A stretch of 64,000 bases of DNA from Clostridia bacterium. Its GTDB lineage: Bacteria > Bacillota > Clostridia > Oscillospirales > Acutalibacteraceae. Made by a program: the position numbers and the translations under genes. The DNA lies in assembly GCA_030532035.1 (NCBI GenBank), contig JAUNLX010000002.1, forward strand, positions 62,001 to 126,000. Direction: 5' to 3'. Numbering within the stretch: the stretch's first letter is position 1; each line of letters opens with the position of its first letter. The notes under the pieces are model-generated. The model searched no databases, was not told the origin of the DNA, and saw only the letters and a list, made by a program, of their open reading frames with translations. This document shows positions 9,044 through 45,867 of this stretch, piece after piece.

Positions 9044-10258
9044 TTGATAAAAGAAATAGAGTCAAAAATAAATAAAATTCTTTTAGAAAAAGATTTTACG
9101 GATTCAGAAGTTTTTTCCCTCATAAAAAAGGAAATTGATAAATCATCAAAAAAAGAATATCTGAGCATAGATCAAAAAATTGCTATGGCAGATAAAATTT
9201 ATAGTCGTATTAAAGGATTTGGAATTTTAGATGATTTACTTTCAGATGATACAGTCAGTGAAATTATGATAAATGGATACAATCGAATTTTTATAGAACA
9301 AAACGGTAAGCTTTTATTGTCTCCGTTACAATTTGAAAGTAAAAAACAACTGGAAGACATTGTTTTCAAAATGGTCGGAAAAGCTGGAAGAGAAATAAAT
9401 ACTGCAAATCCGATAGTAGATATTAGACTGTGTTCCGGAGAAAGAGTCAATGTTGTAATTGAGCCAGTTGTATCTACTGGACCTACGGTAACGATAAGAA
9501 AATTTCCTGAAAAAGCTATAAATGCAAAAGACTTAATAAAAAATAACACTGTTACCATTGAGGCTATGAATTTTTTGGAAAAATTAGTCAAAACCAAGTA
9601 CAACATTTTCATAAGCGGAGGAACAAGTGCAGGTAAAACAACTTTATTGAATGTATTGACGAATTTTATAGGAGAAAAAGAAAGAATAGTTCTAATTGAA
9701 GATTCCGCAGAAATAAGACTAAATTCAAAGATAAAAAACTATGTTTCTATGGAAGTCAGGCAGGTAAATTCTGCGGGAGTAGGAGAAATTACGGTTAGAG
9801 ATTTAATTAAAACTTCACTTAGAATGCGACCAGAAAGAATAATTGTTGGCGAAGTGCGAGGAGCAGAAGCCATAGATATGTTGCAAGCTATGAATACAGG
9901 ACATGAAGGATCTATGTCAACAGGTCATTCAAATTCTGCAAATGATATGTTTTCGAGACTTGAAACTATGATTTTACAAAGTTACGACAATATTCCACTC
10001 ATTGCAATTAAAGATATGATTGCAAGCTCTATTGATATAGTTGTTCACATCTCCAGAATGAGAGATTTTTCTAGACATATTACTGAGATTAGTGAAGTAA
10101 CGGGTCATCAAAATGGGAAAATATCCTTAAATCCGATTTATCTTTTTAAGGAAGATGAAAAATCTAAAATCGATAAGGTGAGCGGAAAACTTGTTAGAAC
10201 AGATAGACCGTTTATAAATGATTTTAAATTAAAGTTGGGAGGTTTTTATGAAAATTAA
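9044..10258 (+). CDS. tadA: TadA/CpaF pilus assembly ATPase
   Basis: A type II/IV secretion hexameric ATPase powering Tad pilus extension. Walker A is FISGGTSAGKTTLLNVL (about residue 190), the Asp box and Walker B region include RIIVGEVRGAEAIDML, and the His box is GHEGSMSTGHSNSA. The N-terminal domain (FGILDDLLSDDTVSEIMING) is characteristic of the CpaF branch. Length (404 aa) is normal for Gram-positive members. It starts at TTG after GAGGTGA and overlaps tadB by 11 bp. Confidence 0.95.
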   Translation: MIKEIESKINKILLEKDFTDSEVFSLIKKEIDKSSKKEYLSIDQKIAMADKIYSRIKGFGILDDLLSDDTVSEIMINGYNRIFIEQNGKLLLSPLQFESKKQLEDIVFKMVGKAGREINTANPIVDIRLCSGERVNVVIEPVVSTGPTVTIRKFPEKAINAKDLIKNNTVTIEAMNFLEKLVKTKYNIFISGGTSAGKTTLLNVLTNFIGEKERIVLIEDSAEIRLNSKIKNYVSMEVRQVNSAGVGEITVRDLIKTSLRMRPERIIVGEVRGAEAIDMLQAMNTGHEGSMSTGHSNSANDMFSRLETMILQSYDNIPLIAIKDMIASSIDIVVHISRMRDFSRHITEISEVTGHQNGKISLNPIYLFKEDEKSKIDKVSGKLVRTDRPFINDFKLKLGGFYEN

Positions 10259-38083: not shown

Positions 38084-38737
38084 ATGAAAATTTCTCCCTC
38101 GGTATTATCTGCCGATTTTTCAAAATTAGACAGAGAACTCGAAAAAATGTGGAATTCTGGTGCAGAATGGATTCATTATGATGTAATGGATGGCCTTTTC
38201 GTTCCCAATATTACTTTTGGAGCTCCAGTTATCAAGTGCCTGAAAGATAAAACGAAGGCCGTAAGTGATGTACATCTCATGATAGAAGATCCCATAAAAT
38301 ATATTGAAGATTTTGCAAATGCTGGTGCAGATTATATTACTTTTCATATTGAATCAAAGTCCGACATAAAACAGACTATTCAAAAAATAAAAGATTGTGG
38401 CTGTAAAGCTGGTCTTACTTTGAGGCCTAAAACTGATATTAACAAACTTCTCCCATATCTTGAAATGATCGACCTTGTTTTAATTATGACTGTTGAGCCT
38501 GGATTTTCAGGTCAAAGCTTTATGGCTGATCAAGTTGAAAAAATAAAAATCGTCAGACAAAAAGCTAAAGAGTTGAATTTAGATTTAATAATAAATGTTG
38601 ATGGTGGGATAAATACGGAAAATATCAATATCGTTTCCAAAGCGGGAGCAGATGTTGTTGTTTCAGGAAGTACAGTTTTCAAATCGGAAGATCCTGCAAA
38701 GACTATTGCCGAATTAAAGAAAAACGCTGTTGTTTAA
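38084..38737 (+). CDS. rpe: ribulose-phosphate 3-epimerase
   Basis: Interconverts ribulose-5-P and xylulose-5-P in the pentose phosphate pathway. A TIM barrel with SPSVLSADFSKL, the metal/catalytic Asp and His in HYDVMDGLFVPNITFG and DVHLMI, MTVEPGFSGQ, and the second catalytic Asp in NVDGGINTEN; the phosphate-binding end is VVSGSTVF. Length 217 normal. Ribosome site GGAGG. Confidence 0.97.
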   Translation: MKISPSVLSADFSKLDRELEKMWNSGAEWIHYDVMDGLFVPNITFGAPVIKCLKDKTKAVSDVHLMIEDPIKYIEDFANAGADYITFHIESKSDIKQTIQKIKDCGCKAGLTLRPKTDINKLLPYLEMIDLVLIMTVEPGFSGQSFMADQVEKIKIVRQKAKELNLDLIINVDGGINTENINIVSKAGADVVVSGSTVFKSEDPAKTIAELKKNAVV

Positions 38738-38738
38738 T

Positions 38739-39791
38739 ATGGTAAAAGAAGAACAAATTGAAAAGAAAAAATTCACAATAAAAGAATATATGATAGATTT
38801 GATAATAATGTTATCTTGTCTGTCTATTATGGGTATTTATCTAAACGGAGCGAGAGCTCTATTTATAATTCTTATTTGTATTTTTACAGGAGTTCTTTCA
38901 GAGAGTTTTATTGATTTTGTAATAAGAAAAAAAATTCGTACCTCGGTCGTTGATTTAAATACGGTTGCACATTCTATGATAGTGGCTCTGTGTATGCCAG
39001 TTTCTATACCTTTGTTTTTTCCGATAATTGGTACCTTGGTGACTGTTGTAATAGGTAAAATTCCTTTCGGAGAATCAAAAGAACAAATTTTTGTTCCCTC
39101 GGCTGTTGGGCTTTCTTTTTTAAGCGTTGCTTATGGAGAATATCTTTTTACTTTTAGAGCTTTTGAATTTATAAAAAGTAAAGAGATAAGTGGAATAAAC
39201 GATTTATCGTTGGCAGGTATGTTAAAGCAAGGCAAATCCATAATGCCCGATGCGATGAATGTTATACAAGTTATAATTGGCAGAGTTACAGGACCGATTG
39301 GAACTACTGCTATAATTTTATTTTTAGGCTGTTTTATCTATCTTGCTATAAAGAGGAGAGAACAGCTTGTGGTCATCTTTTTCTACCTTTTTGCAATTAC
39401 TCTGGTAGCAATTATTTCTCCCAGAGTTTATACCGGAAGAAAAATTTCTATATTAATGGAATTGAGCGCAGGTTATGTTTTATTTGGCTCAATATTTATG
39501 CTGTCTGATTTAATTACTTCGCCAAAAAATCCTATAGCTCGTGGGGCATATGGTTTCTTTGCCGGCATACTCACTATGTTATTTAGGCATTTTGGAAAAT
39601 TTGAAGATGGCGTATTTTTTGTTGTTATTTTGATGAATGCTATGTCTGATTTTTTCGAACGATTGGGCTTGAAAATTGAAAGTCTTTCGGACGAAAACAA
39701 AAAGAATAAAGGAGCAGTTAAAAAAGTTGAAAAAAAGCACAGAAACTACAGAAAAATTAAAAAAGGACAAGAAAAACAAGAAATTAAGTAG
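38739..39791 (+). CDS. RnfD/NqrB-like membrane protein lacking the flavin motif
   Basis: 350 residues with 8-10 membrane helices. It matches the NQR2/RnfD/RnfE family in FVPSAVGLSFLSVAYGEY (canonical NPAAVGLAF), RVTGPIGTTAIILFLGCFIYL (canonical GxIGETSALAxLLGGxYL) and SDLITSPKNPIARGAYGFFAG. I find no S-G-A-T-like motif, the site of covalent FMN attachment in RnfD/NqrB; the corresponding stretch reads NDLSLAGMLKQG. The C-terminus adds a Lys-rich tail. The start is ATG 38739, 1 nt after the rpe stop; there is no strong ribosome site, so coupling to rpe is likely. Role unknown; redox activity doubtful. Confidence 0.75.
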   Translation: MVKEEQIEKKKFTIKEYMIDLIIMLSCLSIMGIYLNGARALFIILICIFTGVLSESFIDFVIRKKIRTSVVDLNTVAHSMIVALCMPVSIPLFFPIIGTLVTVVIGKIPFGESKEQIFVPSAVGLSFLSVAYGEYLFTFRAFEFIKSKEISGINDLSLAGMLKQGKSIMPDAMNVIQVIIGRVTGPIGTTAIILFLGCFIYLAIKRREQLVVIFFYLFAITLVAIISPRVYTGRKISILMELSAGYVLFGSIFMLSDLITSPKNPIARGAYGFFAGILTMLFRHFGKFEDGVFFVVILMNAMSDFFERLGLKIESLSDENKKNKGAVKKVEKKHRNYRKIKKGQEKQEIK

Positions 39792-40848
39792 AGAACTTTT
39801 TTCTGAAATCTTAATTAAAAATCCTGTTTTAGTTGGTGCTATTGGGCTTTGCCCGATTGTCGCTATAAGTAATTCTTTGGAAATTGCCTTTGTGTTTAGC
39901 TTAATAACCATAATTATGATGATTTTTACTCAAGTTTTAACCGCTCTTATTTTTTCAAAATTTCCGCAGTGGATAAGATACGGATTATATGCACTGTCTA
40001 ATATGATTGTTGTAACCGGTGCAATGTTTATAATATATAAGTTTTTGCCCAATAAAATGTCTACTTTTGGAATATATCTACCTTTGCTCGCTGTAAATCC
40101 CGTCATTACAAGACAGTGTGAGCTTGTGGCAGTTTTTTCAAAAGCTTCTTCTGCGCTTAAAAATGCAATAGCTTCGTCTTTAGGATATGCCTTGATAGTT
40201 ATGATTGTTGGATTTATAAAAGGCTTATGGGGAGCGGGGAAAATTTTTGGAAATGGAATAGATTCTTACATAACCTCTAATGCGGCATTTATGCCTTTTA
40301 CTGGATTTATTATACTTGCTTTTTTAGCCGCTCTTTTGAGAATATATTTTAGAAAAATAGATCCTATGTATGCAGAAGAACTGACTGTTCGTTCAAGAAG
40401 TTCACTGAAATCAAGAATTACAGAGAGGGCAAAGCCCACTGAAGAAAAAATAAATGTTGAAGAAAACAACGAAACTTTTGACAAAAAGAAAGAAAATAAT
40501 AAGAAAATTGAAATTATAAATTTGAATTTAAAAGATGAAAAGAAAGAAAAACAGCAAGCGACTGATTCAAATTCAGCGGATAGCGATATAAAAGTAAAAA
40601 TTAAAAATATAGAAAATATAGAATTGGAAGAAAAACCATCTGAGAAAAACGAAAATTTAGAAAAAGAAGATAAAGAAAAAAATAATATAGTAGATGAAAA
40701 AGCAGAAGAAAAATTAGACGAAAAAAAAGAAAAAACTAAAGAGAAAGAAAAAACTACCGACAAAATAGCAAATTTAGATATGCTTACAAAGATGTCCGTT
40801 GAAGAAATTATAAAGAGATCAAAAACAGATAAAGGGGCCGACAAATGA
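39727..40848 (+). CDS. RnfE/NqrD-like membrane protein with long charged tail
   Basis: 373 residues. Helices with ILIKNPVLVGAIGLCP, ATISNS-like AISNSLEIA and IYLPLLAVNPVITRQCELV align with RnfE/NqrD. The first iron-sulfur Cys is kept (GLCP, about residue 42) but the second is Pro (N-C to N-P, about 125). After the last helix (about 220) comes a 150-residue tail very rich in Lys and Glu, absent from canonical RnfE. It starts within the end of the RnfD-like gene; TTG 39727 preceded by GGAG is my choice, and TTG 39676 is possible. ATGA overlap with the next gene. Confidence 0.7.
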   Translation: MKKSTETTEKLKKDKKNKKLSRELFSEILIKNPVLVGAIGLCPIVAISNSLEIAFVFSLITIIMMIFTQVLTALIFSKFPQWIRYGLYALSNMIVVTGAMFIIYKFLPNKMSTFGIYLPLLAVNPVITRQCELVAVFSKASSALKNAIASSLGYALIVMIVGFIKGLWGAGKIFGNGIDSYITSNAAFMPFTGFIILAFLAALLRIYFRKIDPMYAEELTVRSRSSLKSRITERAKPTEEKINVEENNETFDKKKENNKKIEIINLNLKDEKKEKQQATDSNSADSDIKVKIKNIENIELEEKPSEKNENLEKEDKEKNNIVDEKAEEKLDEKKEKTKEKEKTTDKIANLDMLTKMSVEEIIKRSKTDKGADK

Positions 40849-41459
40849 ATATTTTTCTTGGATTTTTATCGGCAATTTTTTATATGGGCTTAAGTCAAAA
40901 CCTTGTTTTTTCTGGTGGCTTTGGCTCAAGTGAAGTAATTAGAACTGCCGCAAGACCTGGTCAGCTTAAAATTTTCTTTTTGAGCATAACTTTTTTCTCG
41001 ACGATAACAGCTCTTGTTTCGAGATTGTTTTTGCTCTTCCCACGACTTAAAACTGCAGAAGAATTTATAATTGTAATAGTTTTTGTTTTGATTTTAATTG
41101 CTATTTACTTTTTGACTTTGATTTTTGTAAAAATAGCACTTTCTAAGTCTTCATGGAAACAAGAACAGAAAGAAAAATTTTATAGACAAATATCTATTGC
41201 CGCTCTAAATACCATTGTATTGGCTCTGCCATTCATTTCAAAGAAAACAGCTTTTGGAATTTTAGATTCAGTTGGTGCAGGACTGGGTGCTGGGCTCGCT
41301 TTCATTATAGCGACATTCTTCTTAAATGAGGGAATGAAAAGGCTGGAAAAAAAGACGAGTATTCCTAAAAGTTTCAAGGGAACAGCGATAGTTTTTTTAT
41401 ATATGGGAATTATAGCTATGGCATTTACCGGATTTTCAGGTAAATCTTTGTTTTTCTAA
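40845..41459 (+). CDS. RnfA/NqrE-like membrane protein without iron-sulfur cysteines
   Basis: 204 residues, six membrane helices. The C-terminal half aligns well with RnfA: DSVGAGLGAGLAFIIATFF, MKRLEKKTSIPKSFKGTAI and MGIIAMAFTGFSG (canonical LAFMGFSG). Both cysteines that hold the RnfA/RnfE iron-sulfur centre are missing: the FLGLCP region reads SGGFGSSEV (about 23-31) and the NCAVLG region reads NTIVLA (about 122-127). Ends 8 nt before the desulfurase gene. Confidence 0.75.
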   Translation: MNIFLGFLSAIFYMGLSQNLVFSGGFGSSEVIRTAARPGQLKIFFLSITFFSTITALVSRLFLLFPRLKTAEEFIIVIVFVLILIAIYFLTLIFVKIALSKSSWKQEQKEKFYRQISIAALNTIVLALPFISKKTAFGILDSVGAGLGAGLAFIIATFFLNEGMKRLEKKTSIPKSFKGTAIVFLYMGIIAMAFTGFSGKSLFF

Positions 41460-41467
41460 GGAGAAAG

Positions 41468-42580
41468 ATGATTTATTTTGACAACGCTTCTACAACAAAA
41501 CCAACCAAAGATGTAATAGATATAATGGCGCAGGCAAATTATACAAATTTTGCAAATGCGTCATCATTACATAAAATAGGAAATGATTCAAAAAATCTGC
41601 TTGAAGCTTCAAGAAAGCAAATTGCGGATTTTTTATCTATTAAATCAGATGATTTATATTTCACTTCTGGAGGAACAGAGTCGAACAATATTATGCTCAT
41701 TGGCTCTGCACTTAAAAATTTAAAAAGTAGAGGCAATATAATAACTGATCGACTGGAGCATCCGAGTGTGATAGAAGCCTGTAAAATAGCTGAACTTTTA
41801 GGCACAGAAATTCGCTTTGTCAAAAGTGACAAGGACGGAAAAATTGATTTGGCAAATTTACAGGAACTGATTGATGAAAAAACTCTGCTTTGCAGTTTTA
41901 TGTTAGTAAATAATGAAACTGGAGTTGTGAATCCGATTGAGCAAGCAGCTGAAATTATTCATTCTAAAAATCAAAAAACTCTTTTGCACTGTGATGCAGT
42001 ACAGGGATTTACCAAAATAAACTTGCCGACAAAAGATATTGATGCTTTTTCTGTAAGTTCGCATAAAATACATGGTCCCAAAGGAATAGGCGCATTATAT
42101 TTAAAAAATAAAAATGCTGTTAGAACACCGGTTACAGGTGGTGGGCAAGAAAAAAACTTGCGTGGTGGAACTGAAGCTTTGCCAATAATAATGGGTTTTG
42201 CAAAAGCCGTTTCTGCGAGTGTTAAACAAAAGAAAAATGTTTATGAGATAAACAAATATCTGAGAAAAGAATTGACGAAAATCAAAGATGTTGTGATAAA
42301 TTCTCCTGATGATGCTTCAGATTATATTTTGAATATTTCTATTTTGCCACTACCGTCAGAAGTTGCAAGAAATGCCCTTTCCATGGAAGAAATTTATGTT
42401 TCTTCGGGTTCTGCTTGTACTAAAGGACATGAAAGTCATGTGCTTGTAGGATTGAATTTACCTAAAGATAGACGGCAGTCGGCAATAAGACTCAGCTTTT
42501 CCGATTATAATACTTTAGATGAAGCGAAAGTATTTGTTGAAAAATTAAAAGAGATTATTACAAAGTATGGTGTGAAATAA
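41468..42580 (+). CDS. cysteine desulfurase (NifS/IscS family)
   Basis: PLP enzyme giving persulfide sulfur from cysteine. N-terminal YFDNASTTKP, SGGTESNN, the PLP Lys in SVSSHKIHGPKGIGALY (about residue 199), and the catalytic Cys in SSGSACTKGHESH (about 316). The insertion around the active-site loop fits the class seen paired with thiI (Bacillus NifZ-like). It lies 0 nt upstream of thiI, so sulfur delivery for 4-thiouridine and thiamine thiazole is likely. Confidence 0.94.
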   Translation: MIYFDNASTTKPTKDVIDIMAQANYTNFANASSLHKIGNDSKNLLEASRKQIADFLSIKSDDLYFTSGGTESNNIMLIGSALKNLKSRGNIITDRLEHPSVIEACKIAELLGTEIRFVKSDKDGKIDLANLQELIDEKTLLCSFMLVNNETGVVNPIEQAAEIIHSKNQKTLLHCDAVQGFTKINLPTKDIDAFSVSSHKIHGPKGIGALYLKNKNAVRTPVTGGGQEKNLRGGTEALPIIMGFAKAVSASVKQKKNVYEINKYLRKELTKIKDVVINSPDDASDYILNISILPLPSEVARNALSMEEIYVSSGSACTKGHESHVLVGLNLPKDRRQSAIRLSFSDYNTLDEAKVFVEKLKEIITKYGVK

Positions 42581-44205: not shown

Positions 44206-44241
44206 TCTTCAACATAAAATATACAAAAAACTTAAATTGTG

Positions 44242-44258
44242 TTATCATTAAATGATAA
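44242..44258. promoter_or_regulatory. palindrome before the sortase gene
   Basis: TTATCATT-A-AATGATAA, a perfect 8-bp inverted repeat around one base, lies 17 nt before the TTG start. It is a candidate operator or weak hairpin; no clear promoter is visible beside it. Confidence 0.4.
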
Positions 44259-44274
44259 TAAAAGAGGTGATATC

Positions 44275-45867
44275 TTGGCTTTTTCATATTCTAAACCCGA
44301 ACCTTTGAATAACGATTTTCTGTCTTCCATGGATGAAATTTATAAATCTATGGGAGAATTGAGCGAAGTTGAAAATTTTGTAAAACCTGATATATCGGAA
44401 TCTGAACAAATAACAAATGAAAAAAAAGAAGAAAATTTAATTGAAAATAATTCATCAAACTATCAAGAAGAAAAAGCAAAGCAAAGACAATATTGGTCTT
44501 TTATGGACGAAGTAGCACCTATACAAACAGAAAATTCTAAAGAAAATGAAGATAAGACTTCAGATGAAGATTTTCAAGCTTTGGAAAATTTTGGTAAATC
44601 TTTTTCTCCATCTTTGGTAGAAAAATTAAAGAGAGATTTTAATAAAACAGAAATTTCCTACGATGAAGAAGATGAAGAAGAGGAAACGCAAGAAGAGGAA
44701 ATTTTTGAAGAAAAATCCGTCAAAAAAAGTTTTAAGGAAAAAAGAGCCGAAAAAAAACAGCTTAAAGAAGAAAAAAGAAAGCAAAAAGAATTAGAAAAAG
44801 AACAAAAATTGGAAATAAATACAAAAAAGATGAAAAAAGAAGAAAAAAAAGAAAATCAAGAATCAACAGATATTTTAGCTCAAGCTTTCAATGAAAAACC
44901 GATTAAAGATCGTTCGTTTGGCGAAGCTTTTAGAATTTTTGTTATCATAGTTTCTGTTATTGCAATGCTTGGTAGCCTTGGCTTTTTAGCCTTTAAGGGA
45001 TACCAATCATGGAAAAACAAAAAGGTAAATGAACAAGTCAATCAAAGTATTGATACTACAGCGACATGGGATAAAATACATGCTAAATATCCAAATATAA
45101 ATTTTCCGCCTATGATGAATGTAAAATATGCAGATTTATATGCTCAAAATCAAGATTTTGTAGGCTTTGTTTCAGTTGATGGTTTAGGTATCAATTTACC
45201 TGTAGTTCAAGGTAAAGACGACAATTTTTATCTTCACCATAATTTTCAAAAAGAAAAAAATCCCTATGGTACAGCTTTTTTAAGTGCTATCAATAGTTTT
45301 CCCAAAACAGGAACACAAGAAGAAGTTGAATCATTTAAACCCGATTTTAATACTGTTATTTATTCACATAGTCTTAAATCTGGACAACAGATGTTTACAA
45401 ATCTAAAGCAATATAAAGATGTTCGAAATTTTTCTAAAATCCCTATTATAAAATTTGAAACTCTATATAAAACTCATCAATATAAAATTTTCGCCGTTTT
45501 TATAACCAATGGTGGAAGAAATGGTGATTTAAATGGATATGTATTCAATTACTTTTTTGCAAATCTTGCAAGTCCAGAAAAGAAAGCAGAATTTTTAGAT
45601 GAAATTATGCAGAGAAGATTATATGATACAGGCGTTGATGTAAATGTTAACGACAATATAATCACTTTATCTACTTGTACTTATGAATTTGAGGACGCGC
45701 GACTGGTTGTTTTGGGAAGAGAGCTTCGTCCTGGAGAAAGTACACAAATAGATCAGTCTAAAATAAAATTAAATAACAATCCCCGTATGCCTCAAGCATG
45801 GTATACAAAGCGTGGAGAAAATAATCCGTTTGCCAATAGTCCACAATGGATTTTTAATTCTAAATAA
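44275..45867 (+). CDS. srtB: class B sortase with a long cytoplasmic N-terminal domain
   Basis: 530 residues. Residues 1-218 are cytoplasmic, very rich in Glu and Lys (coiled coil about 140-205); one membrane helix follows (about 219-243); the sortase domain is about 285-505. Catalytic residues are His365 (VIYSHSL), Cys468 (TLSTCTYEF) and Arg476 (DARLVVLGRE); LPVVQGKDDNFYLHHNF is a class B feature. It anchors proteins to the wall or assembles surface structures. Usual SrtB enzymes have about 30 residues before the helix, so the N-terminal domain is exceptional. TTG 44275 is preceded by AGAGGTGA; ATG 44239 would add 12 residues. Confidence 0.88.
   Translation: MAFSYSKPEPLNNDFLSSMDEIYKSMGELSEVENFVKPDISESEQITNEKKEENLIENNSSNYQEEKAKQRQYWSFMDEVAPIQTENSKENEDKTSDEDFQALENFGKSFSPSLVEKLKRDFNKTEISYDEEDEEEETQEEEIFEEKSVKKSFKEKRAEKKQLKEEKRKQKELEKEQKLEINTKKMKKEEKKENQESTDILAQAFNEKPIKDRSFGEAFRIFVIIVSVIAMLGSLGFLAFKGYQSWKNKKVNEQVNQSIDTTATWDKIHAKYPNINFPPMMNVKYADLYAQNQDFVGFVSVDGLGINLPVVQGKDDNFYLHHNFQKEKNPYGTAFLSAINSFPKTGTQEEVESFKPDFNTVIYSHSLKSGQQMFTNLKQYKDVRNFSKIPIIKFETLYKTHQYKIFAVFITNGGRNGDLNGYVFNYFFANLASPEKKAEFLDEIMQRRLYDTGVDVNVNDNIITLSTCTYEFEDARLVVLGRELRPGESTQIDQSKIKLNNNPRMPQAWYTKRGENNPFANSPQWIFNSK

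Follow-up and report, generated by a model that had tools for sequence, protein, structure and literature searches.

An RNF-derived membrane core largely stripped of its redox residues in one order of Clostridia

RNF (RnfABCDGE) is a ferredoxin:NAD+ oxidoreductase whose reaction is coupled to Na+ or H+ transport. In the window, by which the whole stretch of 64,000 nucleotides of clostridial DNA analysed here is meant, three adjacent genes (D', E' and A') encode relatives of its membrane subunits RnfD, RnfE and RnfA. The locus raises the question of what such a membrane core may do when the other subunits are not encoded beside it and most of its own redox residues have been replaced. The trio and the genes that border it are:

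38084..38737, + strand: rpe (ribulose-phosphate 3-epimerase), first gene of the apparent operon (open reading frame)
38739..39791, + strand: D', RnfD/NqrB-like membrane protein of 350 aa (PF03116, PDB profiles, site table, structural model)
39727..40848, + strand: E', RnfE/NqrD-like membrane protein with a Lys/Glu tail (PF02508, PDB profiles, translation)
40845..41459, + strand: A', RnfA/NqrE-like membrane protein of 204 aa (PF02508, RnfA matches in the PDB, alignment)
41468..42580, + strand: iscS-like cysteine desulfurase, first gene 3' of the trio (open reading frame)

The rpe and D'E'A' genes are tightly packed and apparently form one operon. The ATG of D' lies 1 nt past the rpe stop, E' probably starts with a TTG at 39727 that follows AAGGAG inside the end of D', and the ATG of A' overlaps the E' stop. 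An earlier note, made from the sequence alone, had described a trio in the order that D, E and A have in rnfCDGEAB, located between rpe and a desulfurase gene and lacking C, G and B. The open reading frames bear out this location, the absence of the three subunits holds at the locus, and the assignments were confirmed by Pfam, NCBIfam and PDB profile searches. D' matched the Pfam family NQR2_RnfD_RnfE (PF03116; 188 bits, E 4e-55), and both E' (92 bits, E 5e-26) and A' (48 bits, E 1e-12) matched Rnf-Nqr (PF02508), all far over the curated cut-offs. PF03116 was the only Pfam domain found in D', which has no match to the NAD-binding domain PF00175. According to NCBIfam the three proteins are RnfD-, RnfE- and RnfA-like, each scoring well under the cut-off of the true subfamily model, and the PDB profiles assigned D' to RnfD/NqrB, E' to RnfE/NqrD and A' to RnfA/NqrE. 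A structural model of D' (pLDDT 70) matched chain 7zc6_D (TM 0.62/0.71), with TM values of about 0.6-0.7 for RnfD and NqrB, and at low significance also urea transporters; the A' model was of low confidence (pLDDT 62) and was left out of the detailed reading. The Lys/Glu tail of about 150 aa that the note had seen at the C terminus of E' is real, occurs with varying length across the whole derived clade described below, and contains short conserved segments. The same gene series also includes a sortase-like protein (named by eye; window positions 44239-45867) with a long acidic and Lys-rich N-terminal part.

The trio is not the only RNF-related locus of its genome. Two of the four Rnf-Nqr proteins encoded there belong to the trio, and the other two, which are strong matches, lie on contig C17 within a complete rnfCDGEAB operon, which contains a separate set of D, E and A; apbE and related genes immediately precede its rnfC. 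The note had allowed that rnfB, rnfC and rnfG genes elsewhere might belong to the same complex as the trio; a complete rnf locus does exist, and its rnfB, rnfC and rnfG sit inside the full canonical operon. This operon contains the only FMN_bind (RnfG-type) protein of the genome, its single full-length RnfB and its only RnfC, the other SLBB match being a protein of 635 aa. Since the full RNF on C17 has its own C, G and B, the trio is a paralogue, and the subunits missing from it belong to the other complex. The canonical RnfE of this genome (L005:7029-7775) carries a Cys-rich C-terminal tail (GCAGCPMSKTCASC).

Relatives carrying this unit were found by whole-genome searches, after which their neighbourhoods were read. 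A contig scan with the A' of the window as query matched no relative, whereas the A' of a relative did find them. Among 391 sampled genomes of the class, the best-scoring derived-type A' matches belong to the order of the window. The weaker matches have scores that overlap with those of canonical RnfA, which blurs the edge of the distribution. The named matches are uncultured Oscillospiraceae and Clostridia, several of them from rumen or gut samples. The resulting comparison set consisted of 30 derived loci and 12 canonical RNFs of the order. All canonical loci not cut by a contig end have the six rnf genes. In contrast, neither rnfG nor rnfB was present at any derived locus (25 of which were classified by best match), and an RnfC-like gene (C') was found at 10 of them, leaving the window and 19 other loci without it. 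In a tree of the concatenated D, E and A proteins (42 rows, 735 columns) the derived loci were split from the canonical ones with a support of 100/100, and they still formed one group in a wider E + A tree that also included 18 canonical RNFs from other parts of the class (30 canonical in total). The derived branches are long, and their exact attachment is therefore unsure. The presence of C' requires three changes on the tree, which fits a single ancestral quartet followed by repeated loss of C'. The derived complex thus has a single origin, in the duplication of an rnf operon within the order.

The sites at which RNF carries electrons and ions were mapped from the structure of the Clostridium tetanomorphum complex (7ZC6; PMC9588780). 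In its RnfD, FMN is attached to Thr153 and its ring is contacted by Gly237; the proposed Na+ path includes Glu185 and Asn90, and riboflavin lies between Asn124 and Asp248 (PMC9588780). The four cysteines of the [2Fe-2S] cluster and Thr153, Glu185, Gly237, Asn124 and Asp248 are present in 12/12 canonical rows. Among the derived complexes, the first and second cluster cysteines of RnfE are found in 9/30 and 0/30 and those of RnfA in 0/30 and 7/30, respectively, and never more than one per complex. In the window the four positions read C-P-S-T: E' keeps its first cysteine and has Pro at the second, and A' has lost both (Ser29 and Thr123). The claim that only the cysteine of the GLCP motif in E' survives thus stood up to alignment with canonical RNF, which placed the missing cysteines at no shifted positions either. 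As judged from these residues, an intramembrane [2Fe-2S] cluster would be unable to form in the RNF manner in the derived complex. Beside the first cysteine position of A', Glu30 and Arg33 are conserved in the clade of the window (Arg being replaced by Lys in one row), and may constitute a polar site at the former cluster location.

The RnfD sites are similarly affected. Glu185 is absent from all 30 derived loci and Gly237 is found in one of them (0/30 and 1/30), whereas Asn124 persists in 11/30 and Asp248 in 20/30. D' of the window has Ser157 at the position of Thr153, Thr at Glu185, Tyr at Gly237 and Val119 at Asn124, and keeps Asp248. The earlier statement that no SGAT-like FMN site exists is correct as far as the motif is concerned, but it overlooked a serine at the position of the FMN-bearing threonine, which is shared by 24 of the 30 derived loci (Thr in 4, Ala in 1 and Leu in 1). 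The covalent FMN of RnfD was probably lost; this is likely rather than proven because the serine found there is, in principle, open to modification.

The C' protein leaves room for a residual redox device, in which C' and riboflavin in D', perhaps with a Ser-linked FMN, would move electrons on the cytoplasmic side or over part of the membrane and might serve as a one-way reductase or a flavin-based sensor, to name two examples. The GGAGFP loop of RnfC belongs to its FMN/NADH domain. An alignment of five C' sequences with RnfC showed that both [4Fe-4S] motifs, with eight cysteines in all, are conserved and that the GGAGFP stretch is replaced; C' could accordingly hold [4Fe-4S] clusters, and the FMN/NADH site is probably absent from it. 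A hydroxyl residue occupies the FMN position in 28/30 derived loci, and Asn124 occurs in 8/10 loci with C' as opposed to 3/20 without it. This correlation between loss of C' and loss of Asn124 is striking in the raw counts, but on the tree it amounts to two independent contrasts only and is not significant. Moreover, C' is missing from many loci, that of the window among them, C' itself is without the loop of the FMN/NADH domain, and Glu185, Gly237 and the cluster cysteines are gone. A device of this kind is rather unlikely. Some of its evidence nevertheless speaks against the explanation favoured below: with a serine at the FMN position, and with Asn124 and Asp248 retained at the riboflavin site of most C'-bearing relatives, a flavin may still be bound, and since C' has kept its [4Fe-4S] ligands some redox role may persist in those relatives.

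The gene neighbourhood is conserved as well. Its most constant member is rpe, which adjoins D'E'A' or C'D'E'A' in nearly all loci. The fullest locus (L118) comprises rpe, a divergent MecA-like gene, C', D', E', A' and a gene for a DUF4015 putative glycosyl hydrolase; L106 is the same with rpe not in view, and the set in about 10 loci of the clade that includes the window is rpe, a divergent gene (with a MecA match in most), D'E'A' and DUF4015. The place of the iscS-like gene 3' of the trio is taken by DUF4015 in many relatives. The ancestral locus was probably rpe-mecA'-C'D'E'A'-DUF4015, of which the window would be the most reduced form. In the C'-less clade, the DUF4015 protein has a SYYxFSKxYPG-like motif before its single predicted membrane helix. 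In three genomes (G018, G014 and, more weakly matched, G015) the N-terminal and helix part stands alone beside A' and the enzyme domain is gone. Short single-pass proteins of this type, DUF4015-like, without the enzyme domain and encoded beside A', are located at:

L040:8020-8424
L043:9586-9882
L041, about 9225-9450

RnfG, too, spans the membrane with one helix and has an outer domain (PMC9588780). By its place and topology, the DUF4015 protein or its anchor may take the place of RnfG in most relatives. Genome searches of the window's organism detected neither DUF4015 nor the anchor nor C', and these partners are therefore not essential there. Two other families of the order have a DUF4015 gene directly after canonical rnfB (genomes G019 and G020; L108:5495-6433, - strand, and L111:1030-2106, + strand), and the link of DUF4015 to RNF is thus wider than the stripped complex. 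In genome G007 (L112:9164-12262), rpe, the MecA-like gene and DUF4015 occur together and no Rnf-Nqr protein is present, as if the core had been deleted between them. Three genomes of a sister family (G582, G619 and G683) have 7 to 15 FMN_bind matches each, which suggests multi-flavinylated proteins. In Caproicibacterium, putative Rex sites have been reported at rpe and rnf (PMC9600882). A search for a Rex-type operator upstream of rpe found none close to this gene in the window, and matches were fewer than expected by chance. A link to sporulation, considered on account of ypeB near one relative, was rejected as essential, the window genome having no Spo0A yet keeping the trio.

These anchors, together with the clade-wide E' tail and its short conserved segments, would also suit a purely structural role, with the trio serving as a platform for the charged tail and the single-pass DUF4015 anchor and moving neither ions nor solutes. 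The retention of the anchor part without the enzyme domain in three genomes agrees with such a role. Conservation, however, lies in the transmembrane cores, including Asp248 of D' beside the proposed ion path (20/30), and the window genome has kept its trio without any DUF4015 anchor. We consider a mere scaffold improbable.

The derived core might instead be an accessory or alternative one that uses the C, G and B subunits of the complete RNF in its cell, and indeed 29/30 genomes that encode the derived complex also encode an RnfG-like FMN_bind protein. The one exception, G590 (99% complete, 2 contigs), argues against such borrowing. It carries the quartet (in L116), its Rnf-Nqr proteins are the two derived ones only, and searches of it revealed no FMN_bind protein, no canonical RnfA or RnfE and no full-length RnfB, only short ferredoxin-like matches. 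The derived complex is therefore not reliant on borrowed subunits in this lineage. A cultured counterpart may exist: among chain-elongating isolates, strain BL-6 was reported with no more than four Rnf genes annotated, besides an Ech hydrogenase (PMC7764203), and these four may be the derived quartet. As the cysteine partners for electron exchange with RnfB and RnfG are missing too, borrowing is very improbable. Least credible is a decaying, functionless remnant of a duplicated rnf operon, which would account for the long branches and the stepwise loss of G and B and then of C', DUF4015 and mecA', but not for a trio intact over deep divergence in 30 loci, with three open frames and overlapping starts even in the reduced 1.13 Mb genome of the window.

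The explanation we favour, with moderate confidence, is that D'E'A' is an RNF paralogue that is dead for transmembrane redox chemistry and now serves as a membrane machine linked to ions or solutes. After duplication of the rnf operon, RnfG, RnfB, the [2Fe-2S] centre and very probably the covalent FMN were lost, followed in the window's lineage by RnfC, and electron transfer across the membrane would have ended with these losses. The parts left over are the ion-pathway subunit RnfD and the alternating RnfA/E pair. RnfD/NqrB holds the proposed ion path and RnfA/E switches between inward- and outward-open states in RNF and NQR (PMC10643135, PMC9588780, PMC12174285), and the RnfD/NqrB fold is related to urea and ammonium transporters (PMC10643135). 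Assembled with one another, the remaining parts could work as an ion-gradient-linked or solute-linked transporter or as a conformational machine. The data establish the descent of the complex, its losses of genes and residues, its conservation and, for one lineage, its independence of canonical RNF; that the three proteins assemble, move ions or solutes and are coupled to DUF4015 is inferred. A more specific version, in which cofactor-free Na+ or H+ flow through D' drives the switching of E'A' and thereby moves an extracytoplasmic partner (DUF4015 in most relatives) in cell-envelope work, is speculative and rather doubtful.

The phrase of the earlier note that the complex kept its body and lost its electron path is supported across the whole clade, including the genome without canonical RNF. 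Its suggestion that the complex became a transporter, channel or scaffold is more tentative. That nearly all redox residues were lost and the membrane core nevertheless stayed intact suggests that a redox machine was turned into another kind of membrane device in gut and rumen bacteria of one clostridial order. A literature search, with most subscription journals outside it, found no publication describing the derived complex. New here are the extension of the pattern over a whole clade, the loss of subunits in steps, the quartet that includes C', the genome with the derived complex alone, and the conservation of neighbouring genes. The coupling of electron transfer to ion movement in RNF and NQR is still under study, and a core that has shed its cofactors but is maintained by selection would allow the ion-moving and conformational parts to be examined in isolation. 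For genome annotation, counts of rnfD, rnfE and rnfA matches overstate RNF-based energy conservation in gut clostridia, and genomes like G590 might be listed as RNF-positive although a working RNF is missing.

Among known systems, the urea and ammonium transporters show a weak fold likeness to D', accompanied by no significant sequence relation. With RNF the complex shares homologues of D, E and A in the order of rnfCDGEAB, the same sequence-profile families and, by the model of D', the same fold. It differs in the window by lacking G and B, three of the four [2Fe-2S] cysteines and the original residues of the RnfD FMN pocket, by the long charged tail of the derived RnfE, and by the loss of C in the window's lineage. 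Na+-NQR, which has a homologous membrane core, has also been proposed to stem from duplication of the rnf operon followed by loss of rnfB (PMC4014512). It kept the membrane redox centres and gained NqrF, whereas the derived complex lost these centres, and the neighbourhoods read contained no counterpart of NqrC or NqrF (the latter judged by similarity of the open reading frames and by known neighbours). Partial NQR/RNF gene clusters are likewise known from NQR/RNF-like flavinylated systems, which are defined by fusion of an NqrB/RnfD domain to an NAD-binding domain within a flavinylation cluster (PMC8238504). The derived complex, in contrast, has neither the NAD domain nor a flavinylated partner and keeps its RnfE and RnfA homologues.
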